Assembly: GCA_028753945.1 (NCBI GenBank)
Contig: JAPNXP010000014.1
Span: forward strand, 1,984,001 to 2,048,000
DNA length: 64,000 bases
Source: Hexactinellida sp. DTS-2022
Lineage: Eukaryota > Porifera > Hexactinellida
Reading direction: 5' to 3'
Part shown: positions 12,857-55,813 of the stretch, in pieces
How positions within the stretch are numbered: position 1 is the first letter of the stretch
Layout: each line of letters starts with the position of its first letter
The notes under the pieces: generated by a model
What the model saw: the letters and a program-made list of their open reading frames with translations, nothing else
What the model was told of the DNA's origin: nothing
Databases searched by the model: none
Position numbers and translations under genes: made by a program

Positions 12857-13546
12857 CAGTGATTCCAATACTGGGCCACTATACTATAGTATAGTCGGCA
12901 CAGTTATAACCGTAATTAAGAAAAAGTAACGGAGTAACGGTAATGGAAAAAGTTTAACGTAGGAACGGTAATAGAATGGTAAGAGTGACTGATTAAAGAT
13001 ATTGGTAACTGATTTTCCTTATTCTTTTTTCTCCCATTACAGTTAGTTTTTCCTTTACCGTTAATGTTTTTCTCCGTTACCGTTTCCTTTTTCCGTTACC
13101 GTTACTTTTACTTCCGTGACCGGTACTTTTTCCGTTACCGTTACTTTTTTCCGTTACCGTTACTTTTTTTTCCGTGACCGTTACTTTTCCGTTACCGTTA
13201 CCGTATCAAGATGTGATTTGAGTGAATAGAGACGATTCCTCAACGCTTTAGTGGTTAGATATCCAATCGATTTTCTTTTGATGATATTGAGGTCCTCTTC
13301 AAAGCTTGTGGTGGAAGTGGTGCACAACCATAGACTAATTAAAGATAACGGCTTAAACGGTAACGGAAGAAATATAGTAATCGCACGGGAGAAAAAATTT
13401 AACGGTAACAAATGAATTAAAGTTACGGTAACGAAAGAATTATAGTAACGGTAACGGAAGAAATAAAGTAACGGTAACGGAAGAAATAAAGTAACGGTAA
13501 CGGAGTAAAGGAGTAACGGAAGATTTAGTAACGGAGGCCATCACTG
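12857..13546. mobile_element. hAT-type MITE with GTAACGG minisatellite arms
   Basis: Starts CAGTGATTCCAATACTGG and ends GGAGGCCATCACTG, a hAT-style CAGTGAT terminus. The left arm is mainly CCGTTACCGTTACTTTT repeats and the right arm is the complement, AAAGTAACGGTAACGGAAG. About 165 bases of non-repetitive core (13,205-13,370) lie between them. No clear target duplication. Confidence 0.6.
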
Positions 13547-13559
13547 CTCAGAACGAAGG

Positions 13560-13799
13560 TGTTTCTTCCTAAGACACTTGCTACTTATCCAGTGGTGTTT
13601 TGCCAAAAATTGAAAGTTGGGGGCGGTCCCCTTTCAAATTTTTCATTTTCTTATAAACATAGGTGAAAACGGCCCCCAATAATGAATTCTATGGATAACT
13701 GATAGGAAGGAGCGCCCCCCTGGGATATAAGTGCCCCCCCCTAACGAAATAAGTGGGGGGGCGCGCGCCCCCGAGCCCCCCCCCAAACATCACTGTACT
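13560..13799. repeat. G/C-run-rich hAT-like remnant
   Basis: Contains GCCAAAAATTGAAAGTTGGGG, GGGGCG and long C and G runs (13,710-13,790) that contrast sharply with the surrounding AT-rich sequence. Such runs are seen at the ends of several hAT elements in this window (24.8, 25.0 and 27.0 kb). No ends can be fixed. Confidence 0.35.
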
Positions 13800-16001
13800 T
13801 ATCTCAAAAATTACTTTGCTCTAATGAGGACCTCGACTTTAGTAGTGCTAAGGTTTGCAAAGAGATAATCGATGAGGGAAATTATTCTCATATGTGCCCA
13901 CAATTATCGCTGGATAAATTTGCGTTTCTTATTGACTCCCTTAACATTGGCAAAACTAAGTATCTAGAACTCCGACGTACTTTGGGCTCAGATGATCTCA
14001 AATTACCAGGATATAAGAGGGTAGCTGTTCATCGGTCTCAAATTAACTTGGTTGATGAGGTGCGTCTGATTCATAGGGCATTTCCGATAGGAGTAGGGAT
14101 TTCTTACACAAAACTACTCTCCCATACTGTTGAGCGCATTGTAATGAAGTCAATAAAGTCAAACAATAGTGTCAATAATCAAGACTTTCCTCTCAAAGTT
14201 AAAGTGTCCGATGGCCTAGTTGGATCAGGGTGTCATCGAGTGATCAACGACTAAGAAGTTATCCTGAGCTCAAAGCAATTTTTGTTATTTGGGTTTAAAT
14301 TAACGCCATCCTAAATCAGTGCTGCCAACCCTCCCGAATTTTGATGTTTCCTTGCTCTCCCGCCTCCCCTCTCAAACCTCCCCCTTTTTGGATGATTGTA
14401 TATGTAAATATTAGAATCTGAATTTTATAATTACAAGCAATATATTTAGAAGTCTTCAATTAAATAATTCACAATAACCCCAGAAACAAATTTATCTATT
14501 TTCAAACACCATAATGCTGTATATTATCTTGTATTTCCAATTTTCCATTCTGACACATCATTTAGGAAATTTTTATCTATTTAAATATTTTATAATAATA
14601 CAAAAATGCTCACTGCTACCTTATATTTCAATATGAGAGGGTAGATACTAATTGATAGGTAGAGAAATGTTTTTATAATGCATTTTATTCAGGTATTTAT
14701 GCTAATTTAACAAAATACTGACTGACCTGCCGCTTTTTCTCCCGCTTCTAGAGTATCAACCTCCCGCTTTTAGCTGAAACCCCCGCCACAGGTCCCACTT
14801 TTGGGATATTATATATATATCATATCTATCATATTTTAGGTTGTCAGCACTGCCTAAATGCAAACAACAATATTCTGTGGAAACCAAATAAACCTAATTC
14901 GCCATATTCTACTAGACCTCTGCTCTTTTAGCCATTCCGGGGAATGAATAAAATGTGAAGATCTTGATGGATTCACTAATAAATCAAGAGACTTTAGCGA
15001 TTGAAGAAAGCGGGTTTAGTTTACACAATGGTCATGCCGGGGTTAATATAATTCGTTCTCATTTCGACACGAAGATGACAAAATTTTAAGCGACGCTGGT
15101 GGAGCAAGTTGCCAATTGTGTACAGCTTGATTCGCTCAAATACATGACATTAGTTTTGTCAAAACTGGATATCCTGTCAATAGGACAATTCATGAAATCT
15201 TGCTTTATATTCGGAGGTTGATGAGGATTAATTTTTGTCTTTGCCATCAAATCAGAGATTCAATTTAACACTCAAGCAATCTCAGATTAAGATATAGTTT
15301 CAGGTTCTACTCTACATGCTTATCTGAGAACTTTCAGCTGGTTCTTATTATTAGTCTCCCATTTACAGTGTGGTGCTAAAAAATGGCCACCGACTTCGTT
15401 AAAAATGGTAAGTGCTAAGAAGTTTATTAACAACCTAATCAAAGAAAAAATCAATATATCGATTGACCACCATCAGTCCAGGGTGGAGCTTCAACAACAG
15501 GAAATGTTGTTCGGAGGTGTTTCACACGTAACGATGATACAGTCAAAGATTTTCTTTATTGGGTTTTGACTGGTATCCATAATTTTTTTAATAATTTGGG
15601 TGCTATTTTCAGGCTATACAATAGCAATAGAAAAATATACACTGAAGGCCTTGACAATGTATGCCGAGAGACATATGAATCAATTTTGATGAATTTTTCA
15701 TGAATACACGTCACCCCAACATTACATAAACTTCTTGCACATGCAGCTCAAATCATTTCAGATCACAATGGTGGATATGGGTTGAAATTTTATCAAAGGA
15801 ATGGTTAGAAGCTTGTAATAAGCTTGTGAGACGATATCGCGAGAGGTTGTCTAGGAAATTTAGCTTTGAAGATAACGTTTGAGATGTCTTTATCAGGCTT
15901 ATTTCCCATAGCGATCCCATTTTGTCTTCATTTTGTAATAATATGACAGAATTGTTGGAGGTAGATGTATCGGAGCTAAAAGCGATCAAGACATTCTCGT
16001 A
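13800..16001 (+). pseudogene. RAG1-like (RAG1/Transib superfamily) transposase, decayed
   Basis: Blocks that follow the RAG1 core in order are visible across several frames. First comes IGKTKYLELRRTL then LPGYKRV (14,003), matching the pre-RNase H part with its LPGY. Next is FPLKVKVSDGLVGSG, with an Asp at 14,210-14,212 in the place of the first RAG1 catalytic Asp (SCDGMGD). Then PNSPYSTRPLLFLAIPG (about 14,890-14,945) matches the PNSxxxxKPLxLML block, but the second Asp is not visible and a stop is nearby. FDTKMTKILSDAGGASCQLC follows, with the zinc-binding Cys pair at 15,110-15,121 (CTLC in RAG1). GGASTTGNVVRRCF (15,482) comes next. Finally LLAHAAQII...KEWLEACNKLVRRYR (15,745-15,825) matches LAHxxxII...NESGNKLFRRFR, keeping Glu at the third catalytic position (15,799 or 15,808). 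A MITE (14,317-14,852) and several frameshifts kill it. I see no RING or other N-terminal domain. RAG1-like versus Transib cannot be settled by eye. Confidence 0.82.
14317..14852. mobile_element. hAT-type MITE inserted in the RAG1-like relic
   Basis: 536 bp from CAGTGCTGCCAACCCTCCCG to GGTTGTCAGCACTG, flanked by CCTAAAT on both sides (14,310-14,316 and 14,853-14,859). CTCCCGC and CCCGCCAC runs lie near the ends. Removing it rejoins the RAG1-like reading frame around INAILNANNNILW, which shows the MITE came later. Confidence 0.8.
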
Positions 16002-16344
16002 AATTCACTTATTAATGAAAATCTACTGTAATTGATATCTTTAAAGTGCTTTTCCTCAAGAATTTGTACATAATATAGCAAATTTAGATAATAAGGCATT
16101 TATAGATATAATGTTCAATTGTATAAACTTTCTAATACAGATTGGGGTAACTAGAGTGAGTTAATTAGAAATTCCCAAAATATAATGTGACATTGACGTC
16201 ACAACTTTCACACCTTAAGCCAACAAAAATCTAATCATACCAATAGATTCTATGGATACGATTTCCCATATGTAAATAATATAGTTTAATCCCCTATCTC
16301 ATACCTAAATAGCTACTTCCAGGATTTGAACATTTCGTGCCACT
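16002..16344. other. No feature recognised
   Basis: Sequence between the RAG1-like relic and the hAT fragment. I looked for heptamer-like terminal repeats of a RAG/Transib element here and upstream of 13.8 kb and did not find a convincing pair. Confidence 0.4.
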
Positions 16345-16775
16345 GTGCACCTCATGTGGAAGAACAAGAGCTTAATTCAGAAGCCCTGTATCTTGTGGTC
16401 GGTAGATGGCTTTTTCGAAAATATTTAATTATTTGGAACACTTCTTCTTTAACTTCTGTAATTTGAACAACTTGTGCCAATAGATTTAGCAGATGGGCTG
16501 AGCATCCGTATGTTACCTTTGAACTTTCTTCTAACTGTCCATGTTTGCAGCATTGTCTGTAACACCGCTTCCGACACGACAATTAAATCTTTCTTGACAC
16601 ATTTTCTGCGAGCTGCGTATGGTAATAGCATAATGTTGTTAAAGTCGATTTACAACTCCTTGCATCTCCTTTTGGCACAACGTGCACTTAGCTTTCCAAC
16701 CAGATAACCCAAGAGTCTCAAACTTATCGAAATGTAACGATATAGGGTCTTGTTTCCTTCCTTCCTGCCATGAAT
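16345..16775 (-). pseudogene. hAT transposase fragment with BED zinc finger
   Basis: Reading down the minus strand from 16,775, DPISLHFDKFETLGLSGW followed by KAKCTLCQKEMQGVVNRL is the first part of a BED zinc finger (aromatic residues and the CxxC pair), a DNA-binding domain common in hAT transposases. The His pair is missing because the sequence jumps to the catalytic region. There a frame-shifted VTDNAANM (the block following the catalytic Asp) is followed by VTYGCSAHLLNLLAQVV and IIKYFRKSHLPTTRYRASG (16,540-16,370), typical of the hAT insertion-domain region. An internal deletion and frameshifts leave it inactive. No C-terminal dimerisation block is seen. Confidence 0.78.
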
Positions 16776-19273: not shown

Positions 19274-21439
19274 ATGCAAAAGCATATTACTTTGTCAGTA
19301 ATTCACAAGTTATTAATGGCATCAAGCAAACGCAATCAACGGGATCTCAAACAAAAAGTTGAAATAATTAAAAATTCTTCTGGTCAATCGCATCGGCAAT
19401 TGGCAGAGAAATTTAATATAGGAAGAACCCAGGTATCCTCCATACTTAAGCGAAAAACAGACTATTTGACAGCTTATGAGGAAAATCAGAGTGGAAAAAG
19501 GAAGCAGCATTGTTATTCCAACGAATATAATATTCTATACACAGTTATGTGGGACTGGTTACAATCTGCACGCTCAATAAACATACCCCCCTCTGCACCG
19601 TTGATTCAAGAGAAAGCATTAGAATTCGCAGCATCTTTAGGGATTGACGAATTTAAAGCGTCAAACGGCTGGCTAAATCGCTTTAATAAACGTCATAATT
19701 TAGTGTGTGGAAAAATAAGTGGAGTACGAGGATCAGTTGACGATGATACAGTAATAGAATAGAAGGAGAAACTGCCATCTATCATATCAGGGGGGAAGCT
19801 GCATTTGTCCGAATTTTGTTGTATTCCTTTGTCCGAATTTTGAAGTATGTATCTGTCCGACTGACGTATGCATTTGTCCGACTGGAGTATGCATTTGTCC
19901 GAATTTACATTGATGTAAGCATTTGTCATTCATATGATATTTTGTCACTAAGACACTTAGAAATGCGAGTGTTTTATCAATAATCAATACAAGGCACTTA
20001 GAAAGTTGGTGTTTTCCCAATGATTACGTAGACACTGAGATTTTCCACCAGGGCACCATACCCATACGCTTAAAAAGGGCGCGCTTTCCCCCGAAATCAT
20101 ATATACGCACTTAGAAATGCGTGCGTTTTAACAATAAACCATAAAATCACACTTAGAAATGCGAGTGTTTTATCAATGATCCTTAAGAACTTAATGACAA
20201 ATGCTTACTTCTTTTGGACAAATGCATACAACAAAATTCGGACTAATGCATACTCCAGTCGGATAAATGCATACAACAAATTCGGACAAATGCATACTCC
20301 AAAATTTCGGACAAATGTATACCAGAAATTCGGACAAAAGCATGCGCCCCATATCAGATTTCAATTGCACAATATATTCAACATGGGTGAGACAGGTATA
20401 TTTTCCCTTCCAGACAAGACTATGCATGAGCGAGCTAATGAATGTACTGGAGGAAAACGTTCGAAGGATCGAGTCACTTGCTAACTTTGTGTTAATGCTT
20501 TGGGAGACTATGAGCGGATATTGATTATTGTACACTCTCTAAATCCTAGATGTTTTAAGAACTTCCCGCCGTTTTATTTCCCCTAACATATCGTGCAAAT
20601 ATTAAAGCTTGCATGACTAGCGCACTATACCATGAGTGGCTAAATGCTTTTGACGCCAAAATGCGCAATCATAATAGGCATATCTCTTTGTTTTTAGATA
20701 ATTCACCATGTCATCCACCAGGAAATTCTCTAACCTACATAAAATTGATATTTTACCAGCAAATACCACTTCTGTTCCACAACCACCCGATCAAGGTATT
20801 ATCGAGTGTTTGAAGTTGCATTATCGAAAACTTCTTCTCCGTCGTGTGATAAGTCAAATCAATAATGGTAGCGGAGCTGAAACAGTATCTCGAAGCGTAA
20901 ACATCCTAGATGCTTGTCAATGGATAGCAGCTGCAATTAAGGAAACACGTCTTAGTACTGTACAGAAATGTTTCTCCAAATGTGGACTAAATTTGAAATT
21001 CGAAGATGATATACCAAATAACGATGATGAAGAAATCGAAACAGTTAAAGAATTGCTTAATTAAGCCTCGGATCGTACATTTGTGATAATATCATTATAG
21101 ATCCTGAAGCATATGTCCACATTGATTGTGAAATTCAAGTTAATGATAACTTAGAATGGGAATGGGAATCGCGTATCCTGGAAAATTCACAAGAAAATGA
21201 AACTTCCGAAGATCTCTCTGATGAAGATGAACCAATTGAGCAGCCAGAAATCAAGAAATTCACTTTCATCGATGCGTTATCCAGTATGGCGTATTTCAAG
21301 GTATTCTTAAAAGACCAGTCAATGACTGATGACCTTACCGTGATTGTCTTCTCTTGAAGATAAAGTCATCCCAATGGTCATTTCCGCACATTTTCCAGGT
21401 CATCAGAAGCAATCTGATTTAGATGCGTATTTTTATTAG
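19274..21439 (+). pseudogene. Tigger/pogo transposase, interrupted and mutated
   Basis: Residues from about 19,320 form an N-terminal Psq/CENP-B-type helix-turn-helix (KRNQRDLKQKVEIIKNSSG, LAEKFNIGRTQVSSILKRK). The second CENP-B/Tc5-type domain follows (IQEKALEFAASLGI, FKASNGWLNRFNKRHNLV). A stop at 19,762 and a MITE break the gene. The DDE domain resumes at about 20,370: FNMGETGIFSLPDKTM shows Gly where the first catalytic Asp of the usual DETGLF motif belongs. GGKRSKDRVT and LNPRCFKNF follow, then LFLDNSPCHP (second Asp, near 20,700), a frameshift, and LPANTTSVPQPPDQGII (third Asp). An acidic tail ends in QSDLDAYFY (21,410-21,436), which fits a PCNA-binding PIP box, a feature reported for Drosophila pogo. 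Dead through loss of one catalytic residue, frameshifts and insertion. Confidence 0.88.
19800..20345. mobile_element. MITE with TTTGTCCGAATT repeat arms, inside the Tigger gene
   Basis: The left arm repeats CATTTGTCCGAATTTTG at least five times with spacers GTATG and TTGTTGTATTC. The right arm is the complement (ATTCGGACAAATGCATAC, again about five times) ending at about 20,345. The interior has CACTTAGAAATGCGAGTGTT copies, some inverted. It splits the Tigger frame between the DNA-binding and catalytic halves. Confidence 0.75.
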
Positions 21440-27503: not shown

Positions 27504-29831
27504 ACTCTATAAGCTTTATTAGCACAGTTGATTATAAATAAATGCTTTTGCGAACCGTTTGTGACTAATGTATATTTGTTAGTAGGGCAGCATAATAGCA
27601 CAGTTGTTATTATAGATAGGTACTTTTGCGCTCAATTTATGACTAAAGTATATTTCTTTGGCGGACAGAATAATAAACACAAGTTGTTATTAATGAGTAT
27701 TTTGCGAACCGATATGACAGGGCCGGATTATGGCATAATCTAATTAAGCTATAGCTTAGGGCCTCACAAGTTTATGCGGCCTTATTGAATTGGGGGGTGG
27801 GGGGGCCTCAGAAGTCAATATAGCCTAGGGCCTCACCATTGCTTAGTCCGTCCCTGGAAATGACTAATGTAAATTTCCTTAGAAGCAGAGCATATTAAGC
27901 TCAGTTGTTATAAAAGAGAGGTACTTTTGCCCACCTTCTATGACTAACGTATGTTCTTTGTCGGGGAACATAATTTTCACTATGTTTATTATATTGAGTT
28001 ACTGTTGCGCACCGTCTAAGTCTAAAGTATTTCTTACTCAGGGAGCATAAGAATTACAATTAATATTCTAGAGAGGGAATTTTGAGCGCAAGTTTATGAC
28101 TAATGGATATTTCTTAGTTGGACGGCATAATATGCACTGTTGTTATTATAGAGATGTAATTTTGCGCATCGTCTAAAACCAATGTGTATTTCTTAGTTGG
28201 TAAACTTTATATGCACAGTTCGTATTATTGATAGGTACTTTCCCGCACTTTCTTAGACTAATGTATATTTCTTAGTAGAGAAGCATAATAAGCACATTTT
28301 GTTATTATAGAGAGGTTCTTTTATGCGCCGTTTATGACTAATGGATATTTATCAGTCGGACAGCATAATATGCACAGTTGATATTATAGTGAGGTACTTT
28401 TGCTCACATTCTATGACTAATGTATATTCTTAGTCGGGAAGCATAATAAGCAAAGTTGATATTATAGAGATATACTTGGCGCCGTTTATCACTAATGTAT
28501 ATTTCTTTGTCGGACAGCATAATAAGCACAGTTGTGATTAAAGAGAGGTACTTTTGCGTACCATTTATGACAAATGGAAATTTTTGCTTGGCAGATTTAT
28601 AGCACATTTCTTATTTTAGTGAGCTACTATTGGGCACCTTATATGACTTATGTATATTTGTTTTAGGGCAGCATAATACGCACATTTTGTTATTTTAGAG
28701 CGTTACTTTTGCGCAGCATTTAAGGTTAATGTAAATTTCTTAGTAGGAGAGCATAATATGAACAGTTGGTATTATAGTGACGTACTTTTGCGCACCTTCT
28801 ATGACTAACGTATATTCTTAGTGGGACAGGATAATAAGCACAGTTGTGATTATAGAGAGGTACATTTGCACGCCGTTTATCACTAATGTATATTTCTTAG
28901 TCGGACAGCATAATCAGCACAGTTCTTAATATAGAGGGGTACTTTACGAACCATTTATGACAAATGTTTATTTCTTTGTGGCCAGCTTGATAGCACAGTT
29001 CTTATTGTAGTGATGTACTATTGGGCATCGTATATGACTATTGTGTATTTCTTTTTAGGGCAGCATAATAAGCACATTTTGTTATTTTAGAGCGGTACTT
29101 TTGCGCAGCATTTAAGATTAATAATGTACATTCTTTAGTTGGAGAGCATAATATGCACAGTTGGTATTATAGTACGGTACTTTAGAGCACCTTCTATGAC
29201 TAACGTATATTCTTAGTCGGGAATCATAATAAGCACAATTGTTTTTATATTGAGGTACTTTTGCGCACCTTCTGAATCTAATGTATTTTCTTCCATAGGG
29301 AGCATAAGAATTACAATTGATATTCTAGAGAAGTAATTTTTGTGCCGTTTATGACTAATGGATATTTCTTAGCTGGACAGCATAATAAGCACTGTTGTTA
29401 TTATAGAGAGGTAATTTTCCGGATCATCTAAAACCAATGTGTATTTCTTTGTTGGTAAACTTTATATGCACAGTTCGTATTATTGATAGGTACCTTCCCG
29501 CACCGTCTTAGACTAATGTATATTTCTTAGTAGAGCAGCATAATATGCACATTTTGTTATTATATAGAGTTTCTTTTGCGCGCCGTTGATGTCTAATGGT
29601 TATTTCTCAGTCGGACAGCATAATATCACAGTTGATATTATAGTGAGGTAATTTAGCTCACCTTCGAAGACTAATGTACATTCTTAGTCGGGAAGCATAA
29701 TATGCAGAGTTGTTATTATTGTGAGGTTATATTCTTCACCGTTTATGATTAATGGATATTTCTGAGCCGGATTGCATAATAAGCACAGTTGTTATCACAG
29801 AGAGGTACCTTTTCGAGCCGTTTATGACTAA
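27504..29831 (-). repeat. 79-bp satellite array, reverse orientation, part 1
   Basis: About 28 diverged monomers read here as GACTAATGTATATTTCTTAG, TCGGACAGCATAATAAGC, ACAGTTGTTATTATAGAGAG and GTACTTTTGCGCACCGTTTA. This is the complement of the block at 4.2 kb. Monomers differ by substitutions and short indels, so the array is old. A small hAT-type MITE sits at 27,718-27,856. The array ends exactly at the Helitron 3' tip. Confidence 0.9.
27718..27856. mobile_element. Short hAT-type MITE in the satellite
   Basis: 139 bp from CAGGGCCGGATTATGGCATA to CTTAGTCCGTCCCTG, with TAGGGCCTCAC motifs inside. Flanking GATATGA(C) and GAAATGAC resemble one another, and the satellite monomer continues on both sides, which fixes the insertion. 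Confidence 0.65.
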
Positions 29832-30870: not shown

Positions 30871-33800
30871 CTCGTACATTGGTTGGGGGCTAATATACAT
30901 AGTTTTTTGGAACTTCCTAATCTAGATACTGCCACGTGGAACATGCCATGAGTAAAACATGGAGAGGAGAGGTCCACCCCAATGGATTTGAATGTCTGAC
31001 CCTGTGATTTATTCACCGTCATGGCGAAGCATGGTCTTATTGTAAATTGAAGGCGGCGGAACTGAAAGGGCAGCTCTGTATCGGATGGTATTAGTGGGAT
31101 CCTTGGCAATAGAACCACCTCGCCTTTCTAAGGGCCGCAGGAGATAGTTGCCTCAATTAGGTTCTGGTGCAATCGTGGCACGACGCAGCGGGTGCCGTTT
31201 GTTGTCTTGGGCGGCTCCAAGGACCTGAGAACCATGATGGGGGATCCCACCTTTAGTTTGAGGATGTGGCTTGGCATCCCAGTCAGCTCCAGGGAGTTGA
31301 GGAACTCAACTGGGTACTGTACCGCCTCATTGTCGTTCATGGCACTGTCCTCAGACGCATATTCCTTTTCCTCTCCAGGAAATTCGTTCATCAGCCAAGA
31401 GTTGAGTTTGTTAACGTTAGTGTTTAATGGGGAGACGATCGCCCGCTCAGCAAGCCACTCTGGCTTGGTACTGTTGACATCCAGGTTGGATAGACTTGAG
31501 CCTTGAGTTCCTCCAGGTTGTTCACACTCTTGCACAGCTCTGTTGGGATGGTGATGGTGTCCGGCTTTGCAAACAAAGGAACACGTCCGTCCCAAATTGA
31601 AAGGAGGAGTCTGGCGAAGTCAGCAGCACCTACGTCACCACTCTGATAGGCCCTCATGTTAGTATTGAGTTTCATAATCCTGATTTGGCCCCACAGGTGA
31701 GATTTTTTCAGGCTGGCATTTACGATATTAGCCCTTGCCCCATTCTTGACAACCGATAGAATCTGCCTAAAGTCACCGCAGAGAAGGGTTGGGATGCCGC
31801 CCATGGGTATCTTGCGCCCTGTGATGTCCTGCAGAGTCCGATAGAGAGCCTCAAATGCAGACTTGTGCGTCATGGGTGCCTCGTCGACGATGATAGCAGC
31901 TCCATCACGAATAACTTTAGCCATGGGTGAGTTGCCAGTGATGCGGCAGGTGGGTTGATCCATTCTGTGCGTCCTAGGAATACTTTGAAAGTGCTGTGGA
32001 GAGTTCTTCCGCCTTGCAGGAGGGTGGCAGCAATGCCGCTAGAGGCTGTTGCCAGCACGATCTTGTCTTGGGACCAGATCTTGTAGAGGATGAGGTTGAT
32101 GAGGTATGTTTTACAGTGCCACCCGGTGCATCGAGAAACATGATATTCTTGTTGTTATTGGTGGTATCGTTGTCATGCTCAAGCATTTCGAGGAATGTGT
32201 TGTAAACCTTGCGCTGGTCGTTGGTAAGGTTGTCTTGTAGATTTTCAGTCCGAATAGCCAACTCATCATGGTCGTAGTCCACTTCTCTATGGTATTCTCT
32301 TGCTAGGCGGTCTTCGGTTACTTTCTCCGGGGCAGTCAGGCCATAGACTGGAAGTGGCTCACCACCCATCATATTTACTTTGTCTTCCAGTGAACAAAGC
32401 GCCTAAAAGGTAAGAAGGTTAAGAATATGTCTTGCAGGATCAATAGATCACGCTAGGTCACTGAAAAAATTATGCTCATGGTTGTATATATCATTATTGT
32501 CTTTGGCCTCTTGATTGTTGATTCTGCGACTGTGCTGGTGGAGGAAATCCTCAGACAGCTGGTCTTTGAAGAGGATCCACAACTCTACAGGATTGCTGGG
32601 CATACATGTAGTGAGGATGATGGCCAGGAGGCTCCTTAGTTTGGCAGGAGACTGGGTAACAGTGGGCTCCTCCATTGCCAGGCTAAGGTGTTGGTCATTT
32701 TCCAGGAGTCCTCTGGCCAGGCAGGCTTCCCGATATGTGTGATTGGTATCGTTGTTGACTGTCTGAGGTATTGAAAACAAGTGGGGCCGGATACTTCGTT
32801 AAGCAAGAGCGCAGGTAGTAACATTATCCCGCCCTTCGACTAACTGTATATATCCTACCAATGGCATGCACCTTCCGTTTATCGTCACCTTGATCCTTCT
32901 CCGTCTACCAATCTTCCTCTCTTACGTCGCTGCCACTGCTTGATACACTTGTTCCAAGTGTAGTCTCGGGCAACTCTGGGTACTTCAGGATCTTGGCAAA
33001 GTTGTCCGTGGTGCACAGTTCAAAGAAGGCTGTCAGGGTAGTTCCTGGAGGTGTACTATGTGCTCTCTCCAATGCGTTACTTTCGGTGAACATTACCCTC
33101 TTGCCGTTCTCCACATGCACTGCCAGGCCAACCGCGGGTGGGAAGTGTTCGTGAGTGGGATGTTCAAGGATACGCCAGGATGCCTCACTCACCAGAATGC
33201 CAGGGCATTCTGGAAATGGTCGATCTCGTCCACTGCCTTGGACTGGGTTGTTTGCTGTCTGTTGTCCGCCTATTCGGTGTTCTGCAGTTGGAATACCGCC
33301 TGGTCCGTTCCCTTCGTGATATATTTGTGGTCATATCTTATACTGTTAATGCTGCTGCAGATTTCCACGTTGATGTGGCAGTTAAACTGGCGCAGTAGGA
33401 AGGGATTGTATGGTACTACCCACTGGTTGGTGGCCTCCTGCTCAACCTGTTTGCCATCCTGGCGCATCATTATCTTTCCTGTCCTGCCACCATCTTCTGG
33501 CTTGCGGCGGCGATATTTGGGGTAGCTGTCATTTCCTTGTTCTGTGCTTTCGAGGAACTGCTTTGGGAATCCCTTGGTGCACTGTCGGTCAACCATGCAG
33601 GGTGAGTTCCTGTTTAGAGGGCCGCATGGACCGTGTATCATGTGTGAGAGGACCATCTTGTGCAAGGTTATGTCTTCCTCCTTATCGGGGATCTCTGCAG
33701 TAATAACCAGGTCTATTTCTTCGGGCCAACATAGAAATTATATAGAATCAACATCCTAAATGTTGTCAATTTTTAGATTTCAAATTTTATGGAGTAATTA

Positions 33801-35269
33801 ACACCCCTTATTTTTTCCTCCGGGTACAGCCAGGTCAGGATATGAGCATGAGGAAGTCCACGTTTTTGGTACTCGATTGAATAAAGTCATGCCTCTACTT
33901 TGCCGAAGGCGCCCTTCTTGATTAAGGTAATCATTTTTCTTTGCTTCTGTCGAAACACCTGGCCACTAAGTTTGGCATATCCTGGGACTTCTGGCCAATC
34001 AGCAGGTTATCCACAATCTCGGGCCACTTTGGATTGCATGTCATAGTAATGAATAAGTCCGCGCGTCCCATGCGTCTGACGTAGGACATGGCATCGCTCT
34101 GTTTTTCAAGCATGTACCTCGGTCCACCTGTGTAAGTTGCTGTGAGTACCACCCTCTGGTCGACTTGGCTGGGATCACCATCTCCAGTTAGTTGGCTGTC
34201 TCGCAGGCTCGTGTAGTTGTCCGCTCTTAGGGTCTGCTGCTCACGCCTTAGGAACTGCAAGCGCTCTGTCTCAATCTTGCAGTAGGCATCAATCAAGTAC
34301 TGCTGGAGAGGCGCGCACCCTGTAGTAGGTAGTTTCCGTCCCTGACCATGATGTGGAAACTGTAGTACTGCTGTTGTGTAACCTTGCGTCCGTACTTCCC
34401 CTGCATATATATATGATAGCCATCAGTACCATGTGGGAAGAGCAACGGGTATTGTATCGGATCGTATCCTGGGTGCAGTTCAGAGATGCGCTTAAGGTGG
34501 CCATCCTTGAGGCGGATGATGATATCTCTGGTCTCTGTCGGTTCATTATCCATGAGGATTGCCACTTCTGCAGCCTTCTGGATATTATAGCGTCGCTCGT
34601 GTTCACCCTGGGGACCTCTGTCGTCTCGGATCACGATCTTACGCATTTCGATGTTGCCCTCCTCGATGACGTCCTTTGCAGTCTTTAGCTCACGAAAGTA
34701 ATGGTTGTTGTGATGGAACCATTCGGTAATATTTCTGAGGATTTGTTCGTTTAATCCTTGACCCCCGCTAACAGCAGCCTGTTCAGCAAAGGAATCCAAG
34801 AAGTATACTTGTAGGAACTTGGGTTGAACTTCCTCGGGTGGAAGAATGCAACCTATATGGTGAAACACCTACAAAGTTTATATCATTATATGACTACGAT
34901 CGTGAGCGTCAATATATTTGTAATAACCTGGCCTTGGATCCTGAAGCTCGGTTTCCAGCCCTGTACGGAGGCTTCCTGGTGACCAAAGCTGGTCATGGCG
35001 AAGCAACCGTTGTATTCGATAATATGTGCTAGGAACAACTTGCTTATTGGGCCTTCTCCAGAGAGCAGTTCTTGGAGTAGTGGTGGTGGTGCAGGGAATG
35101 CTTCCAAGCTCACTTTACCTCCAGAACAGCAGATGCCTAGAGTCTCTCCCTCAAATTTGTTTGCCTTACAAAAGTTGCAAATTTCTACCATTGAATTGAT
35201 TTGCAGAGCTGGATGGTTAGCTGAAGGCAATATGAATAAGATCTTCGGGCTTCTTAGATCTAGAGGATG

Positions 35270-35610: not shown

Positions 35611-36330
35611 GACGCTTTCCTGCTGTATTGCATCTTGTTTTGGAATTGTTGGACACATGCGAACGTTTCTTGAGTGGCATTTTTTATGATTTGAAATATG
35701 ACGATGTATAATGTGAAATATGTGAAATATGTGAAATGTTAAATGTGAAATATGTAAAAATATGTAAACAGTTGTATTAATATTACGGGGATCATAGGAA
35801 TGAGACTATTGACAACTCAAATGCAAGCTGAAATTTTATTGGTTAAATCATATAAGCTAGCGCAGGCGAGATTCAATTGTTGTTTCTTTGACCCATTGAA
35901 TTATAAACCAATAAAACTCGAGTCAGAATAATGTGAAAACTCTGCAAATCTGATAGGTCAAGGTCGATCCCCTCGCAAAGTGTGAAAAATGTGCATATGG
36001 TAAATTGCAAATTATGCATTATATGGACTTTAAAATATCATATTTGGATTCCTCATACATTAAAACCTAGATTGCACTTTTGAAATGTTTTTCTAGCAGC
36101 ACTGTGAACTATTGATAATTCCCATTGAAATGTATGGAAAGTGTCAAAAAATCACATATTTTGAGTTAACTTCGCGAGGAATGTAAATATCTCTTAAAAA
36201 TTCCTTATTCAGGGTGGTGGAGTAACTCCTAGATAGTATACAAATTTAGGTTCAGTTCTGATGTGAACTCTCGGAGGAGACGTGATGACAGACAGACACA
36301 CACACCAACCTACTACTTTATATATATAGA

Positions 36331-39300
36331 TGTATATTTCTTAGTCGGATAGCATTATAAGCACAGTTGTTATTATAGAGAGGTACCTTTGCGCATCGTT
36401 ACGACTAGAGGTATTTCTTAGAATGTAAGCTTTACAAGAACATTTCCTATTATACAGAGCTACTTTTGCGATCCATTGTTGACAAATGTTAATTTATTTT
36501 TAGGGCAGCTAAATAAGCACATTTTGTTTTTTAGATCGGTACATTTGCGCAGCATTTAAGGATAATGTATATTTCTTAGCCGGAGAGCATATTATGCACA
36601 GTTGGTATTATAGTGAGGTACTTTTGCGCACCTTCTATGACTAATGTATATTCTTTTCGGGAAGCATAATAAGCAAAATTGATATTATAGAGATGTAATT
36701 GACGCGCCGTTTATCATTTATGTATATTTCTTAAACGGACAGCATAATAAGCACAGTTGTGATTATAGAGAGGTACATTTGCACACCGTTTATCACTAAT
36801 GTATATTTCTTAGTCGGACCGCATAATCAGCACAATTGTTATTATAGAGAGGTTCTTTTGGGCTCCGTCTATGACAAATGCTATTTTCCTTTTAGGGGAG
36901 CATAGTACCCAGAGTTGTTATTATAAAGAAGTTCTTTTGCGTACCGTTTATCACTAATGTTTATTCGTAGTCGGGAACATAATATGCCTTGTTCTTAATA
37001 TAGAGAGGTAATATTGCGCACCGTTTTTGACTAATGTAATTTCTTAGTTCGGAGAGTATAATAAGCACAGTTGGTATTATAGAGAGGTACTTTTGCGAAC
37101 CATTGATGACTAATGTTTACTTCTTAGTCGGACAGCATAATATGCACAGCTGTTATTATAGAGAGGCACTTTTGCGCATCGCCTTTTACCAATTTGTATT
37201 GCTTAGTTTGTGAACTTTATATGCACAGTTCGTATTATTGATAGGTACTTTCCCGCTACTTCTTAGACTAATGTAAATTTCTTTGTAGAGTATCATAATA
37301 AGCACATTTAGTTATTATATAGAGGTTCTTTTGCGCATTGTCTAATTCCAATGTGAATTTCTTAGTCGGGAACATAATATGCACAGTTCTCAATATAGAG
37401 AGGTATTATTGCGCACTGTTTAAGACGAATGGATATCTCTTAGTCGGACAGCATAATAAGCACAGTTGATATTATAGTGGGTAAGTTTCGCAACTTCTAT
37501 GACTAATGTATATTCTTAGTCGGGTAGCATAATACGCACAGTTGTTATTATAGAGAGGTTATATTGCGCACGGTATATGACTAATGGGTATTCCTTAGTC
37601 GGACTGCATAATAAGCACAGTTGTTATCATAGAGGGGTATTTTTTCGTGCCATTTATGTATGTATATTTCTTAGTCGGACAGCATAATAAGCACAGTTGC
37701 TATTATAGAGAGTTACTTTTGCGTATTGTCTAATTCCAATTTGAATTTGCTATTAGGGGAGCATTATACACAAAGTTGATATTATAGAGAAGTTCTTTAG
37801 CGTAACGTTTATCGTTAATGTTTATTCCTAGTCGGGAACATAATAAGCACAGTTCTTAATATAGAGAGTTAATTTTTCGCACCGTTTAAGACTAATGGAT
37901 ATTTCTTAGTCGGACAGCATAATAAGCACAGTTTATATTATAGTGAGGTACTTTTGCTCACCTTCTATGACTAATGTATATTCTTAGTTGGGAAGCATAA
38001 AATGCACAGTTGTTATTATTGAGAGGTTATATTGCGCACCGTTTATGACTAATGGACTTTTATTAGTCGGACAGCATAATATTCACAGTTGTTAGTATAG
38101 AGAGGTACTTTTGCACATCGTCCAAGACAAATGTGGATTTAGTAGGTAAGGTTAATATGCACAGTTGTTATTATAGAGATGTACCTTTGCGCACCGTCTA
38201 AGAGTAATGTATATTTCTAAGTAGGGGACGACAATAATCACAGTTGTGATCATAGAGAGGTACTTTTGAGTGCGGTTTATCACTAATGTATATTACTTAT
38301 CCAGACAGCATAATAAGCACAGTTGATATTATAGAGAGGTTATATTGCGCACGGTTTGTGTCTAATGGGTATTTCTTAGTCAGACATCATAATAAGCACA
38401 GAGATATTTTAGTGTGGTACTTTTGCGCACCTTCTATGACTAATGTATATTTCTTATTCGTACAGCATAATAATCTCATTTTGTTTTTATAGAGAGGGTT
38501 TGTTGCACGCCGTTTATGACTAATGGATATTTATTAGTCCGACAGCATAATATTCACAGTTGTTATTATAGTGAGGTATCTTTTCGAGCCATTTATGACT
38601 AATGTATATTTCTTAGTCAGACAGCATAATAAGCACAGTTGCTATACAGTGTGGCACTTTTGCGCATTGTCAAATTCCCATGTGTATTTTTTAGTAGGAA
38701 GCATAATAAGGACATTTAGTATTTTAGAGTTGTACTTTTCCGCAGCATTTATGGTTAATGTATATTTCTCAGTAGGAGAGCATAAAATGCACAGTTGGTA
38801 TTATAGTGATGTACTTTTCCGCACCTTCTATGACTAATGTATATTCTTATTCGGGTAGCATAATATGCACAGTTGTTGTTATAGAGAGGTCATATTAATC
38901 ACGGTTTATGACTAATGGATTTTCCTTAGTCGGAATGCATTATGTGCACAGTTGTTATCATAGAGAGGTATCTTTTCGGGCCATTTATGACTAATGTATA
39001 TTTCTTAGTCAGACAGCATAATAAGCACATTTTGTTGTTATAGAGAGGGTTTTTTGGAGCCGTTCATGACTAATGGGTATTTCTTAGTCAGCCAGCATAA
39101 TAAGCACAGTTAATATTATAGTGAGGTACTTTTCAAGCACCTTCTATGACTAATGTATATTCTTAGTCGGGAAGAATAATAAGCAAAGTTGATATTATAG
39201 AGAGGTACATGACATGCCGTTTATCACAAATGTATATTAATTAGTCGGACAGCATTATAACACAGCTGTTATTATAGAGAGGTACTATCGCGCAACGTCT

Positions 39301-39715
39301 AATACCAATGTGTATTACTTAGTTGGTAAACTTTATGTGCACATTTCAGTTTAATGATAGGTACCTTCCCGCAACGTCTAATACTAATGTATATTTCTTA
39401 GTAGAGAAGCATAATAACCACATTTTGTTTTAATAGAGAGGGTCTTATGAGGGCCGTTCATGACTAATGGGTATATCTTAGTCAGACAGCATAATAAGCA
39501 AAGTTGATATTATAGTGAGGTCCTTTTCAAGCACCTTCTATGACTAATTATATTCTTAGTCGGGAAGAATAATAAGTAAAGTAGATTTTATAGAGAGGTT
39601 CTTTTGCATGCGGTTTATCACTAATGTATATTACTTAGTCGGACAGCATTATAAGCACAGCTGTTATTATAGAGAGGTACTTTTGCGCATCGTCTAATAC
39701 CAATGTGTATGAGTA
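36331..39715 (-). repeat. 79-bp satellite array, reverse orientation, part 2
   Basis: About 42 monomers continuing the array interrupted by the Helitron, in the same orientation as 27.5-29.8 kb (TATATTTCTTAGTCGGACAG, AATAAGCACAGTTGTTATT). Some monomers share extra features such as GGTAAACTTTATATGCACAG (37,210, 39,330), suggesting local multi-monomer duplications. Orientation changes at about 39,715. Confidence 0.9.
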
Positions 39716-40348: not shown

Positions 40349-41344
40349 TTAGTCATAAACGGTTAGCAAAAGTATTTCTATATAATAACAACTCTCTTAT
40401 CATGCTGCACTAAGAGAAAATATACATTAGTCATAGACGGAGCCCAAAAGTACATCTCTATAATAACAACTGTGCTTAGTATGCTTCCCTGAAAATATAT
40501 ATACACTAATCTTAGACGGAGCGCCAAAGTACCTCTCTATAATAACAACTGTGCGTATTATTCTCCCAGACCAAGAAATTACATTAGACTTAAACGATGC
40601 ACAAAAGAACCTCTCCATAGAAACAACTGTGCTTATTATGCTCTCCGAATAAGAATATACATTAGTCATAGAATATGCGCAAAAGCACCTTTCTATAATA
40701 GGATCTGTGCATATTATGTTCTCTCTCATACTAAGAAATATGCATTATTCATAAACGGATAGCAAAAGTACTTCTGTATAATAACAACTCTGCTTATAAT
40801 GCTGCACTACAAGGAAATATACATTAGTCATATCCGGAGCCTGAAAGAACCTGTCTATAATAACAAAATGTGTTTATTATGCTCCCCTACTAAGAAATAT
40901 ACATTAGGCTCTGACGGTGCGCGAAGCTACGTCTCTATTATATTAACTGAGCTTATTCAGCTAACCAACTAACAAATATACATAAGTATTAGACGATGCA
41001 CAAAAGTACCTCTCCATAATAACAACTGTGCTTATTATGCTCTCCGACTAAGAAATTTCCATTTGTCATAAAAGGGGCACAAAAGTACCTCTCTAGAATA
41101 ACAACTGTGATTTTTATGTTTCCCGACTAAGAATATACATTAGTCCTAGACTGTGCACAAAAGTACCTCTCTATAATATGAATTGTGCGCTTATTTAGCC
41201 TACCTTCTTAGAAATACAGATTAGTCTAAGACAATGCCGCAAAAGTATCTCTCTATATTATAATTTGTGCGTATTATGCTTCCCGACTAAGAATATACTT
41301 TAGTCATGAAATGTGCAAAAGCACCTCTCTAAAATAGGATGTAT

Positions 41345-42903: not shown

Positions 42904-45900
42904 TTAGTCATAAACGGTTAGCAAAAGCACTTCTTTATAATAACAACTCTGCTCATCATGCTGCCCTAAGAGGAAATATACATTAGTAATAGACGAAGCC
43001 TGAAAGTACAGCTCTATAATAAATCTATGTATTAAGCTAACCTACTAAGAAATATACATTAGGCTTAAATGGTGCGCGAAAGTAACTCTCCATAATAACG
43101 ACTGTGGTTATTATGCTGCTCGACTTAGAAATATCCATTAGTCATAAATTGGGCACAAAAGTTCCTCTCTAGAATATCAACTGTGATTTTTATGCTACCA
43201 GACAAAGAATATACATTAGTCCTAGACCTTGCCCAAAAGTACCTCTCTATAATATGAATTGTGCTTATTAAGCTTACCTTCTAAGAAGTACAGATTAGTC
43301 TTAGACGATGCCGCAAAAGTTACTCTCTATATAAATAATTGTGCCTATTATGCTTCTACTAAGAATATACATTATTCATAGAATGTGCGCAAAAGCACCT
43401 CTCTATAATAGGATCAGTGCATATGATGCTCTCTCTCTCATACTAAGAAAATATAGATTAGTCAGAAACGGATAGCAAAAGTACTTTTATATAATAACAA
43501 CTGTGCTTATCATGCTGCACTACAAGGAAAGATACATTAGTCATAGCCGGAGCCTGAAAGAAACTCTCTATGAAAACAAAATGTTCTTATTATGCTCTCC
43601 TACTAAGTATATTATACATTAGTCTTAGACGATGCACAAAAGTACCTCTCTATAATAACAACTGTGCTTATTATGCTCTCCGAATAAGAAATTTCCATTT
43701 GTCATAAAAGGGGCACAAAAGTTCCTCTCTATAATAACAACTGTGCATATTATGCTCTCATACTTAGAAATATTCATTAGTCTTTGACGGTCCACAAAGG
43801 TACCTCTCTATTATACCAACTGTGCTATTATGCAGCCCGACTAAGAATATACATTGGTACTAGACGGTGCGGAAAAGTGCCTCTCTATAATCACAACTGT
43901 GCTTATTATGTTTACCTGAAAAGAAATATACATTAATCTTAAATGGTGCGCAAAAGTACCTCTCAATAATAACAAATGTGATTATTATTCCTTCCGCCTA
44001 AGAATACACATTAGTCTTTGACGCTGCGCTTAACTACCCCTCTGTAATAACCACTGTTCTTATTAAGCTTACCCACTAAGAAATATTCATTAATCTTAAA
44101 TGGTGCGCAAAAGTACCTCTCCATAATAACAAATGTGATTATTATTCCTTCCGCGTAAGAATGCACATTAGTCTTTGACGCTGCGCTTAACTACCCCTCT
44201 GTAATAACCACTGTTCTTATTAAGCTTACCCACAATGAAATACACATTAGTCTTAGAAAATGCACAAAGGTACCTCTCCATGATACAAGTGTGATTATTA
44301 TGCCTTCCGTCTAAGAATACAAATTAGTCATATAATGTACGCAAATGTACCTCTCTATAATAACATCAATGCTTATTATGCTCTCCTACTAAGAAATACA
44401 CTTTAGTCTTAAATGGTGCGCAAAAGTCACTCTCCATAATAACAACTGTGATTATTTTGCCTTCCGAATAAGAATAGAAATTAATCTTAATCGGTGCGCT
44501 TAAGTACCACTCAATAAATAACAACTGTGCATATAATGCCTTCCGCATAAGAATACACATTAGTCTTAGAAGCTGCTCATAAATACCCCTCTATAATAAT
44601 AACAACAGTGCATATTATGCTCTCCGACTAAGAAATATCCATTATTCATAAAAGGGGCTCAAAAGTACATCTCTAGAATAACAAAAGTGATTTTTATGCT
44701 ACCCGAAAAAAGAATATACATTAGTCCTAAACTTTCCGCAAAAGTACCCCTATATAATATGAATTGTGCTTGTTAAGCTTACCTTCTAAGAAATACAGAT
44801 TGGTCTTAGACAATGCGCAAAAGTACGTCTCTATAAATATTATTGTGGTTTTTATCCTTCCCGACTAAGAATATTGATTATTCATAGAAGGTGCCCAAAA
44901 GGACCTCTCAATAATACCATCTGAGCTTATTATGCTCTCCTACAAAGAAACATTCATTAGTGATAAACGGTTCGCAAAAGTACTTCTTTATAATAACAAC
45001 TCTGCTTATCATGCTTCACCTACCAGGAAATATACATTAGTCATAGACGGAGCCCGAAAGAACCTATCTATAATAACAAGTGTGCTTATTATGCAGTCCG
45101 ACTAAGAAATACACATTAGTCTTAGACGATGCGCAACGGTACCTCTCTATAGTAACAACTGTGCTTATTATGCTTCCCGATTAAGAATATACATTAGTCA
45201 TAGATGGTGCGCAAATGTCTCTCGCTATAATAGAACCTGAGCTCATTATGCTCTGATACTAAGAAATATACATTAGTCTTTGACGCTACACAAAATTACC
45301 TCTCTATAATAACCACTGTACTATTTTGCTGCCCGAAAAGAAATATAAATTAGTCATAAACGGTTCGCAAAAGTACTTCTGTATAATAACATCTGAGCTT
45401 ATCATGCTTGCCCAAATAAGAAATGCACATTAGTCATAGACGGATTTCGAAAGAACCACTCTATAATAACAACTGTGCTTATTATGCTTCCCGACTAGAA
45501 TATACATTAGTCATAGACGGAGCTTGAAAGAACCTCTCTAGAATATCAACTGTGATTTTTATGCAACCAGACTAAGAATATACATTAGTCCTAGATCTTG
45601 CCCAAAAGTACCTCTCTATAATATGAATTGTGCTTATTATGCTTACGAATCAGAAAATACATTAGTCATAAACGGTTCGCAAAAGTACTTCTGTATAATA
45701 TCAACTCTGCTTATCATGCTTGCCCTAAGTGGAAATATACATTAGTCATAGACGGAGCCCGAAAGAACCTCTCTATAATAACAACTGTGTTTATTATGCT
45801 GTCCGACTAAGAAACATCCATTAGTCATAAGCGGCGCGCAAAATAACCTTTCTAGAATAACAACTGTGATTTCTATGCTACCCGACTAAGAATATACATT

Positions 45901-47520
45901 TGTCCTTGACGGTGCACAAAAGTCCCTCTATATAATAAGAACTGTGCTTATTATGCTTCCCGATCAAGAATATACATTAGTCACATAAGTTGCGCTTATT
46001 ATGCAGTCCGACTAAGTAATATCCATTAGACATAACGGTTCGCAAAAGTACTTCTTTATAATATCAACTCTGCTTATCATGCAGCCCTACTAGGAAATAT
46101 ACATTAGTCATAGACGGAGCCCGAAAGAACCACTCTATAATAACAACTGTGCTTATTATGCTGTCCGACTAATAAATATCCATTAGTCATAAACGACGCG
46201 CAAAATAACCTCTCTAGAATAACAACTGCGATTTTTTGCTACCCGACTAAGAATATACATTAGTCCTAGACGGTCCGCAAAAGTACCTCTCTATAATAAG
46301 AACTGTGCTTATTAAGCTTACCTTCTAAGAAATACAGATTAGTCTTAGATTATACTCAAAAGAACCTCTTTAGAATAACAACTGTGCTTATCATGCTTGC
46401 CGACTAAGAATATACATTAGTCATAGAAAGTGCGCAAAGGTACCTCTCTATTATAACATCTGAGCATATTATGCTCACCTACAGATATATACATTACAGT
46501 CGAAATCGGGTTTTTTTGCTTATTGGGTTTTTTTGCCTCCTTTTGTCGTGCATTTTGGGGGGCAAAAAAACCCGATTTCGACTGTAGTCATAAATGGTTC
46601 GCAAAAGTACTTCTTTATAATAACATTTCTGCTTATCATGGTGCCCTACAAGGAAATATACAGTATTCATAGACGGAGCCCGAAAGAACTTCTCTATAAT
46701 AACAACTGTCCTTATAATGCAGCCCGACTAAGAAATATACATTAGTCTTTGACGGTACACAAAAATTACCTCTCTATTACAACAACTGTGCTATTATGCT
46801 GCCCGACTAAGAAATATACATTAGTCATAAACTGTTCGCAAAAGTACTTTTGTATAATAACAACTCTGCTTATCATGCTTGCCCTACTAAGAAATATACA
46901 TTAGTAATTGACGGAGCCCGAAGGAACCTCTCTATAATAACAACTGTGCTTATTATGCTGCCCGACTAAGAAATATCCATTAGTCATAAACGGCGCGCAA
47001 AATAACCACTCTGGAATAATAACTTTGATTTTTATGCTACCCGACTGAAAATATACTTTAGTCATAAACTGTTCGCAAAAGTACTTTTGTATAATAACAA
47101 CTGTGCATATTATGCTCAGTTACTAAGACATATACATTAGTCTTAGACGGTGCCCAAAAGAACCTCTCTATAATAACAACTGTGCTCATTATGTTGCCCT
47201 ACTAAGAAATATACATTAGTCATAAACCGTGCGCAAAATACCTCTCAATAATAACAACTGTGCATATTATGCTCAGTTACTAAGAAATATACATTAGTCT
47301 TAGAGGTTACCCAAAAGTAGCTCTCTATAATAACAACTGTCCTTAATATACTCCCCTACTAACAAATACACATTAGTCATAGACGGTGCCCAAAAGAACC
47401 TCTCTATAATAACAACTGTGATTATTATGCTCCCCTACTAAGAAATATACATTAGTCTTAGACGGTGCCCAAAAGAACCGCTCTATAATAACAACTGTGC
47501 TCATTATGCTGCACAGAACA
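42904..47520 (+). repeat. 79-bp satellite array, forward orientation, part 2
   Basis: About 58 monomers of the same family (AATATACATTAGTCATAGAC, GGAGCCCGAAAGAACCTCTC, TATAATAACAACTGTGCTTA). Variant classes alternate in a semi-regular way: GGAGCCxGAAAG, GGTTCGCAAAAGTACTTCT and GGCGCGCAAAATAACC types. This hints at higher-order units of several monomers. Near 44,090-44,230 a two-monomer segment (TCTTTGACGCTGCGCTTAAC) is repeated almost exactly. Ends at about 47,520. Confidence 0.9.
46497..46584. mobile_element. 88-bp hairpin MITE (CAGTCGAAATCGGG), TA duplication
   Basis: CAGTCGAAATCGGGTTTTTT then TGC at the left and GCAAAAAAACCCGATTTCGA then CTG at the right pair as near-perfect arms. TA at 46,495-46,496 and 46,585-46,586 and an uninterrupted satellite monomer after removal fix the insertion. 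The ends suggest the Tc1/mariner-pogo group. Confidence 0.88.
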
Positions 47521-54391: not shown

Positions 54392-55813
54392 TTATATGTT
54401 AATATTATATGCTATCCCCCTTAAGTAATCTAGAAGATTGCGATTTGAGTAGGCAGCAACTAATGTGAAGATCCTCTCTTCTCTCTTTAGGGACAGCTTG
54501 GAAATTTCTTTGTGTTCTCCCCCTTCCCATTTCGAGTAAACTGCCTCCTGAAGTGATTGTTCCCGCTTCAAATGTTTTAGTAATTTTGGTAGGCTTGGGT
54601 GTGAATGAGAAATTCCAGATCCAAAGGCGTTGTGCCAGCCTTCCACAGAGTTGTTGGTACGCGCTTGCTTGCTGATAATTTGCATATACATATTCCATAC
54701 CCTGATAGGAAATGGAGGCATTCTTCTGGAATTATTAGGTAGCTTCTTTCCTATATACGTATTCTCAAAGTATTTAGCTACTCACATAGCTGATTGTGGA
54801 TATTCTTCCATTATCATATTGAATGAATCAATAACATCATTCTCAGGCACAAAGGCCAAACAAGGTAACATCTTGAGTTTCAGAGCAAACTCTTTATCTT
54901 GTTGGTACCTTGTAGTTAAGCCCTCGGCTTGAACTTTTCTGTAAACACTCTGAGCTAAGTGGAAGAAGCAGCCAGATACTGAAGCATTGAAGTGATTTTC
55001 GAAAGAATTTATTGCGGCTTTCTCAAAATCTATCATAATGGATTTCGGATTTAATTCGGGCCCTAGTTCGAGTAGTTTGAGATTCATTTGATCATAAGTT
55101 CGTTCATTCTTAGCCTCAAGCAAACCATATACACAAGGGAATATGTAACCATCTTTTTCGGCATGGATTGTATATATCTGAAAGAAATGTTCGGGTACTA
55201 CTTTGAAAGTTCCATCACAAAACCAGTTTGAACTTTCTTTTAGAATAGATAGAAAGTTGGGAGTTCCAAAAAGAATGAGTCTGTGTACATCGCCTTCCCC
55301 AGAATCAAAAAGTAAGAAACTATCTCCCTTGTGAGAAAACTTTAGAGAATTTGGAATGATCACTTCAGCACAACAAGAAGGATTGCCAAAATATTCTTCC
55401 GCTGTACTTTTGCAATTTCGTATTGTTCGTTTAACAGATGCAAGTTTCGGAAGTTTAACTATGCTCTCTGCAGACATGTTTTGAACTGAGTTGGCAAGAA
55501 GGTTCCTAGTACTTGTTTCTGAATTCTTTGCAACTTCTTTGAGATTGTTATAACCTCTTAACATTTCTACCCTAGACATGTCAGGGCTATGTGAATGTTG
55601 ACAATATATCTCAGACGAATTGTGTGGTTTAATGATATCATTGTTAGATGTATGTATTCTAGCTTTGCAACTTCCTCGTTTTTCACAGACCCAGTATTCG
55701 ATGCCATTCGCAACCCTGTTCAAAGTGTAAATATATCCGTGTGTAGTTGCCTTGTCTTTATTTATTTCGCTTTTGATCCTCTCAATAGTTAAGTCGGGTA
55801 AGGAGGTCGCCAT
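54392..55813 (-). pseudogene. MULE transposase with FLYWCH zinc finger, one in-frame TGA
   Basis: A 473-codon frame on the minus strand starting MATSLPDLTIERIKSE. Residues about 24-75 form a FLYWCH-type zinc finger (GYIYTLNRVANGIEYWVC, CKARIHTS, then a CQHSHSP pair), which binds DNA. The MULE catalytic domain follows: FCDGTFKVVPEHFFQIY with the first Asp codon at 55,213-55,215, FPCVYGLLEAKNERTYDQM, and SIMIDFEKAAINSF with the second Asp at 55,028-55,030, then CFFHLAQSVYRKVQ. After YPQSAM a TGA at 54,782-54,784 interrupts, but the same frame continues VAKYFENTYIGKKLPNNSRR to RTNNSVEGWHNAFGSGI and stops at 54,392. This tail is standard for the family, so a single nonsense change is the only visible lesion. 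It is the best preserved DNA transposase here apart from the P element at 62 kb. Confidence 0.9.

Follow-up and report, generated by a model that had tools for sequence, protein, structure and literature searches.

Transib transposons are cousins of the enzyme that rearranges antibody genes, and both the Transib of Helicoverpa zea (HzTransib) and RAG1 act by a nick-hairpin, cut-and-paste mechanism. The ends of Transib elements follow the consensus CACWRTG, and heptamers are called RSS-like below by comparison with the RSS consensus. Tao et al. (2022) distinguished a Transib Subgroup I, which has asymmetric ends, a CTT1 tail, and an α11–α12 region and is closer to RAG1L, from the remaining Transibs, Subgroup II (PMC9435367). 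AanRAGL, which carries RAG2L, has two-block ends with spacings of 4 and 13 bp (PMC9435367). RSS spacers are given as 12 and 23 in one account (PMC8355894), and the CTT* knuckle is described in another as Cx2Cx3GHx4C (PMC7204232).

Against this background we analyzed a window of 64,000 nucleotides from Hexactinellida sp. DTS-2022, in which the initial annotation had described a RAG1-like transposase relic at 13,800–16,001. The six motifs on which that description was based (LPGY, DGLVGSG, PNSPYSTRPLLF, CQLC, GGASTTGN, and LEACNKLVRRYR) are all present there, in that order and in three forward frames. They are not a chance string, since the region is matched in tblastn by intact transposases from this genome (15 of 15 queries, E down to 1.7e-46); at E ≤ 1e-3, these 15 queries gave no match elsewhere in the window. 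With a probability of roughly 95%, we judge the relic to be what is left of a dead Transib DNA transposon. The proposed limits were too narrow, as the relic begins with an inverted N-terminal piece and extends to the 3′ terminus (approximately 13,203–16,347) and is in pieces, one of them inverted, with two unrelated insertions (Table 1).

Table 1. Parts of the transposon relic, in window coordinates. L041 is an intact relative; L010, L025, and L068 are other loci of the same genome.
Feature	Position	Strand	Remarks
N-terminal transposase piece	13,203–13,328	-	Residues ~102–155 of L041; orientation opposite to that of the other transposase pieces
Short coding piece	13,544–13,589	+	blastn match to L010 3187–3231, 87% over 46 columns
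Unrelated repeat inserted in relic	~13,585–13,795		86% match in L025, beside another relic
Transposase piece with first catalytic block	13,796–14,316	+	50% identity to L041 over 13,784–14,302
MITE insertion	14,317–14,852		Ends CAGTGCTG / CAGCACTG; flanks CCTAAAT
Remaining transposase, three frames	14,853–16,031	+	tblastn pieces; PNSPYSTRPL, second Asp, CQLC zinc pair, GGASTTGN, Glu
3′ terminal inverted repeat	16,308–16,347	-	Second block GGAAGTAG ~20 bp from heptamer
3′ terminal heptamer	16,341–16,347	-	CACTGTG, which is CACAGTG read inward; same 3′ end as L041
Right-hand target duplication, probable	16,348–16,352		CACCT; from AGGTG of L010/L068

The N-terminal piece is recognized by tblastn in frame -1 (13,327–13,169, E 1.1e-8); unlike in the window, the corresponding stretch of sister copies adjoins the next piece in the other orientation. 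The short coding piece has the normal orientation and, in sister copy L010, comes after the stretch that is inverted in the window. CCGTTA-type tandem arrays of opposite orientation (13,013–13,204 and 13,356–13,519) flank the inverted piece, which possibly arose between them, with the opposed arrays as a possible substrate for inversion. The MITE had been delimited correctly: sister copies are without the insert, and their alignments to the two sides overlap by 7 bp, CCTAAAT, the sequence that borders the insert on either side in the window. It is repeated elsewhere in the genome. The conserved C terminus of the transposase, QDILVNSL, lies near 16,031.

How much of the active site remains? In the family, the first catalytic block reads DGLDGSG, and its invariant Asp is the second D (D291 of L041), which aligns with that of RAG1L and HzTransib. 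In the relic this block is DGLVGSG, the first catalytic Asp having become Val (codon 14,219–14,221, GTT). The second Asp, which the initial annotation took to be lost, is kept within SHFDTKM (codon 15,066–15,068), so the missing residue is the first; the catalytic Glu is also kept (codon 15,808–15,810). Val at the first position is shared with L010, the sister copy on C2, while the other sister copies examined have GAT. We compared 21 locus records, several of which cover one place more than once: Val occurs in three, all from the C2 place, and Asp in the remaining 18. D291 and D394 (L041 numbering) are invariant among 15 proteins and E651 is nearly so, with one of the 15 ending before it; all three catalytic columns are invariant in a seven-protein set that includes HzTransib and BbRAG1L. 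The LPGY motif had been equated with that of RAG1. It is present in the intact L041 protein but is probably not the corresponding site, as in the sole alignment that covers this part of RAG1 (weak, -1.9 bits) the RAG1 LPGY pairs ~19 residues further on.

Alignments to several sister and intact copies end at or beside 16,347, and a CACxxTG-type end, which the initial annotation had not found, lies exactly there. Since no second end was found in the window with exact CACAGTGG or CACAGTGT, the 5′ end is lost, altered, or relocated. Nor did we find a left-hand copy of CACCT in the window. On the reading that its 5′ terminus has been clipped, the element of L010 and its 5′ neighbor L068 has AGGTG at both ends, so that CACCT was probably the target duplication first made by the window copy. 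The window relic is 93% identical to L010, which it also matches past the 3′ end in the right flank, and 86–91% identical to seven further copies over 0.7–1.2 kb. The window and C2 copies share both the lost Asp and the right flank, and they thus look like the products of a segmental duplication that followed the loss of the Asp. As neither the MITE nor the inversion is present in the C2 copy, both would postdate the duplication. With the first Asp lost, frameshifts and stops in the coding region, one piece inverted, two insertions, and a 5′ end that was not found, the window copy is dead: it is an ordinary, decayed transposon fossil, incapable of transposition by the nick-hairpin route.

Profile searches with the window translation itself, which the initial annotation had named as a check and whose failure it had named as a refutation, found nothing: six fragments gave no match in Pfam, and the first piece gave none in the PDB. 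The pieces thus score nowhere on their own, and the link to RAG1 and Transib goes via relatives in the same genome. A profile of 15 family proteins, used to search the PDB, matched Helicoverpa HzTransib at 2.7e-53, amphioxus RAG1L at 6e-26, and vertebrate RAG1 at 2.3e-18 at best. In a tree of 20 proteins from this genome and three from the PDB, RAG1L and RAG1 split from the rest (100/100); HzTransib and a zebrafish fragment form long branches whose exact place is unsure. Outside the transposase, there is no frame of at least 90 amino acids in 11 of 12 representative elements, and L055 has one further frame of 127 amino acids beside the transposase. The HzTransib match, the tree split, and the single frame together identify the family as Transib, and its CACAGTG ends (16 of 20 regions) fit the CACWRTG type. 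One scan of genome contigs and two of viral contigs found no bacterial or viral relatives. A literature search for Transib in sponges (Porifera), judged by titles, found no paper on such a family, and one for Transib in Xenoturbella found no paper at all.

Could the relic instead be a RAGL element, whose parent transposon had a RAG2-like gene as well? At E ≤ 0.001, the Pfam RAG1 profile (PF12940) has 33 matches in the 112.4-Mb genome, of which 15 exceed Pfam's cut-off (one being the window's sister relic on C2, at 25.5 bits), and it matched none of 14 control genomes. The CACAGTG ends, the tails of 10 of the 20 proteins, which contain a zinc knuckle resembling the RAG1L CTT*, and the longer stretch that separates the two zinc regions, also seen in RAG1L, would also suit such an origin. 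These features have to be set against the much better match to HzTransib, the 100/100 split in the tree, and the lack of a second frame of this size in 11 of the 12 elements, on which grounds we rejected RAG1L identity. In addition, a Pfam scan of four intact proteins detected the RAG1 core in all four and no RING, the rest being below cut-offs. A search of the genome with PF03089 (RAG2) gave no match, but the control was equally silent. We therefore regard a RAGL origin as very improbable. What stands of the claim that this genome hosted a RAG1-like DNA transposon is a transposase of the RAG1/Transib superfamily with many relatives; its RAG1-like (RAGL) flavor does not.

HzTransib (PDB 6pqn) is the best solved relative of the family and has the same catalytic residues, but has ~35 positions fewer between the zinc regions and lies on a long branch. 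In this stretch, which may correspond to the α11–α12 region, 48 profile positions face 13 residues of HzTransib, and RAG1L aligns through. With amphioxus RAG1L/ProtoRAG (PDB 6b40) and vertebrate RAG1, the family shares the catalytic core, the CxxC zinc pair, and an RSS-like heptamer; unlike them, it shows no RAG2-like partner, no RING was found, and the sequence match is weaker.

The relatives are numerous and many have decayed. The N-terminal piece of the window copy has at least 151 protein matches in the genome, with a few places counted twice, and many copies contain stops. Twenty regions, selected for long frames, were fetched, and each has a stop-free frame of 580–757 amino acids. In a search that used the CACAGTG heptamer itself, 16 of the 20 have it at both ends, and exact 5-bp target duplications surround 14 of these 16 elements, the exceptions being L041 and L058 (19 end pairs were listed; for loci with two pairs, the fitting or nearer pair was taken). 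One recognized end is absent in the other four (L043, L047, L054, and L060). CCATA flanks the sister relic L012/L069 on either side. Copies on different contigs can be nearly identical (L047/L048, 99.8%; L049/L060, 99.7%), which suggests that the family moved recently. The 3′ end pattern of the window subfamily occurs at 24 places in the genome, compared with none for the reversed control. Seven of these places were fetched, and an exact-heptamer search revealed an element of 1,452 bp, complete and flanked by a GACAC duplication, at one (L067) and no second end within 1.4–1.5 kb at the other six. The L067 copy, which has the same ends, is non-autonomous. Of the intact copies, 5-bp duplications, and RAG2-like partner for which the initial annotation proposed to search the genome, the copies and the duplications were found; no partner was seen. 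Several long intact frames might suggest that the relatives are not transposons but a family of domesticated host genes; this is more improbable still, given the terminal repeats with target duplications, the near-identical copies on different contigs, the many copies with stops, and the non-autonomous copy with the same ends.

One divergent intact transposase (L054:1716–3809, + strand; 698 amino acids, 28% to L041) deserves separate mention. Its region has the best Pfam RAG1 score in the genome, and it is closer to RAG1L than the one other protein that was searched individually. The 3′ end consists of CACAGTG and GGAAATAGG; no 5′ end was found in the fetched region.

The two ends of the elements are not alike. 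When 5′ and 3′ ends were compared without restriction, the second block was shifted by 9–10 bp for most elements, and the best block lay at shift 0 or a negative shift for L041/L056 (9-mers only), L042, L046/L048, and L053. In a restricted test, which was devised after seeing this result and which considered only blocks inside the end, the second block of the 3′ end lies deeper by 9 bp in 8 of 12 representatives and by 10 bp in 2; L059 has a shift of 14, and L053 has no clear shift. At shift 9 the mean best match was 7.3 of 10, compared with a shuffle mean of 3.75 and a highest shuffle value at any shift of 5.25 (1000 shuffles). As non-cognate ends often match at the same offset (of 53 such pairs that agree in 8 or more of 9 positions, 25 are at shift 9–10), most of the block is shared across the family. 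The L044 ends have 11 and 20 bp between the heptamer and GGAAGTAGG. Asymmetric ends of Transibs have already been published (PMC9435367; PMC8355894), and the principle is therefore not new. AanRAGL likewise has two-block ends that differ in spacing by 9 bp, but it carries RAG2L and the block sequences differ.

The C-terminal tails vary. A knuckle resembling CTT* is present in L044–L050, L053, L059, and L060 and was not seen in the other ten proteins. L041 and L042, which are nearest the window copy, are without it. The L057 frame stops before the tail, and L051:1523–3754 (-) and L052:1372–3618 (-) have other Cys-rich C-terminal ends after the conserved LVNSL motif. The knuckle spacing is mostly Cx2Cx3GHx5C, none of the proteins having exactly x4 before the last Cys, and on the tree the knuckle needs two changes. 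In its features the family resembles the published Subgroup I Transibs: it has a single transposase gene, asymmetric ends, a type-I-like tail in 10 of the 20 proteins, and extra residues between the zinc regions. It differs from them in that the knuckle mostly has the x5 spacing and that the other proteins lack the knuckle or do not show their tail.

What the family displays, therefore, is one-gene elements with CACAGTG ends, 5-bp duplications, asymmetric ends, and intact transposases with three catalytic residues. By analogy with HzTransib and RAG1, the transposase would pair one short-spacer end with one long-spacer end, nick beside the heptamer, and then make hairpins; the excised element would be inserted with a 5-bp stagger. 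A more tentative idea, which we think could be true but would not favor, is that a RAG2-free Transib swarm keeps the RSS heptamer and an end asymmetry of ~11/20 across subfamilies that differ in the second block and in the C-terminal tail. If so, one-turn discrimination between ends needs neither RAG2 nor a CTT1-type knuckle and must reside in the transposase core or the N-terminal DNA-binding part. Why V(D)J recombination joins a short-spacer to a long-spacer signal is an old question. The present genome contains RAG2-free relatives that are intact and have apparently moved recently; they have the RSS heptamer and ~11/20-bp spacing and belong to subfamilies with and without the knuckle. They make it possible to test if the RAG1-type protein by itself sets the pairing rule, and the family may be useful for asking if a 12/23-like rule can exist without RAG2.

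A single Antp query gave three homeodomain matches in the genome, the best at 46% identity and none Hox-like. This argues against Xenoturbella, as X. bocki has five Hox genes, and perhaps against bilaterians; the G+C content published for X. bocki, 43% (PMC11521371), also differs from the ~36% of the window. A search for let-7 found nothing, as did its control. The window, which gave no match in an Rfam search, contains several other features. A frame at 19,274–19,762 (+) has CENP-B_N and Tc5 DNA-binding domains, and a 347-amino-acid frame at 54,782–55,825 (-) has FLYWCH and MULE transposase domains. At 62,179–63,977 (+), a THAP domain is followed by a TNP-like RNase H fragment; the first frame of this stretch had no match in the PDB at E ≤ 0.001. 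A broken Helitron, with PIF1 helicase and Helitron_like_N domains in separate frames, occupies a stretch of higher G+C content at 31,128–34,868 (-). Finally, a 79-bp satellite forms large arrays at 27,860–29,831, 36,330–39,710, 40,349–41,336, and 42,904–47,512, which have one orientation to the left of ~40 kb and the other to the right.
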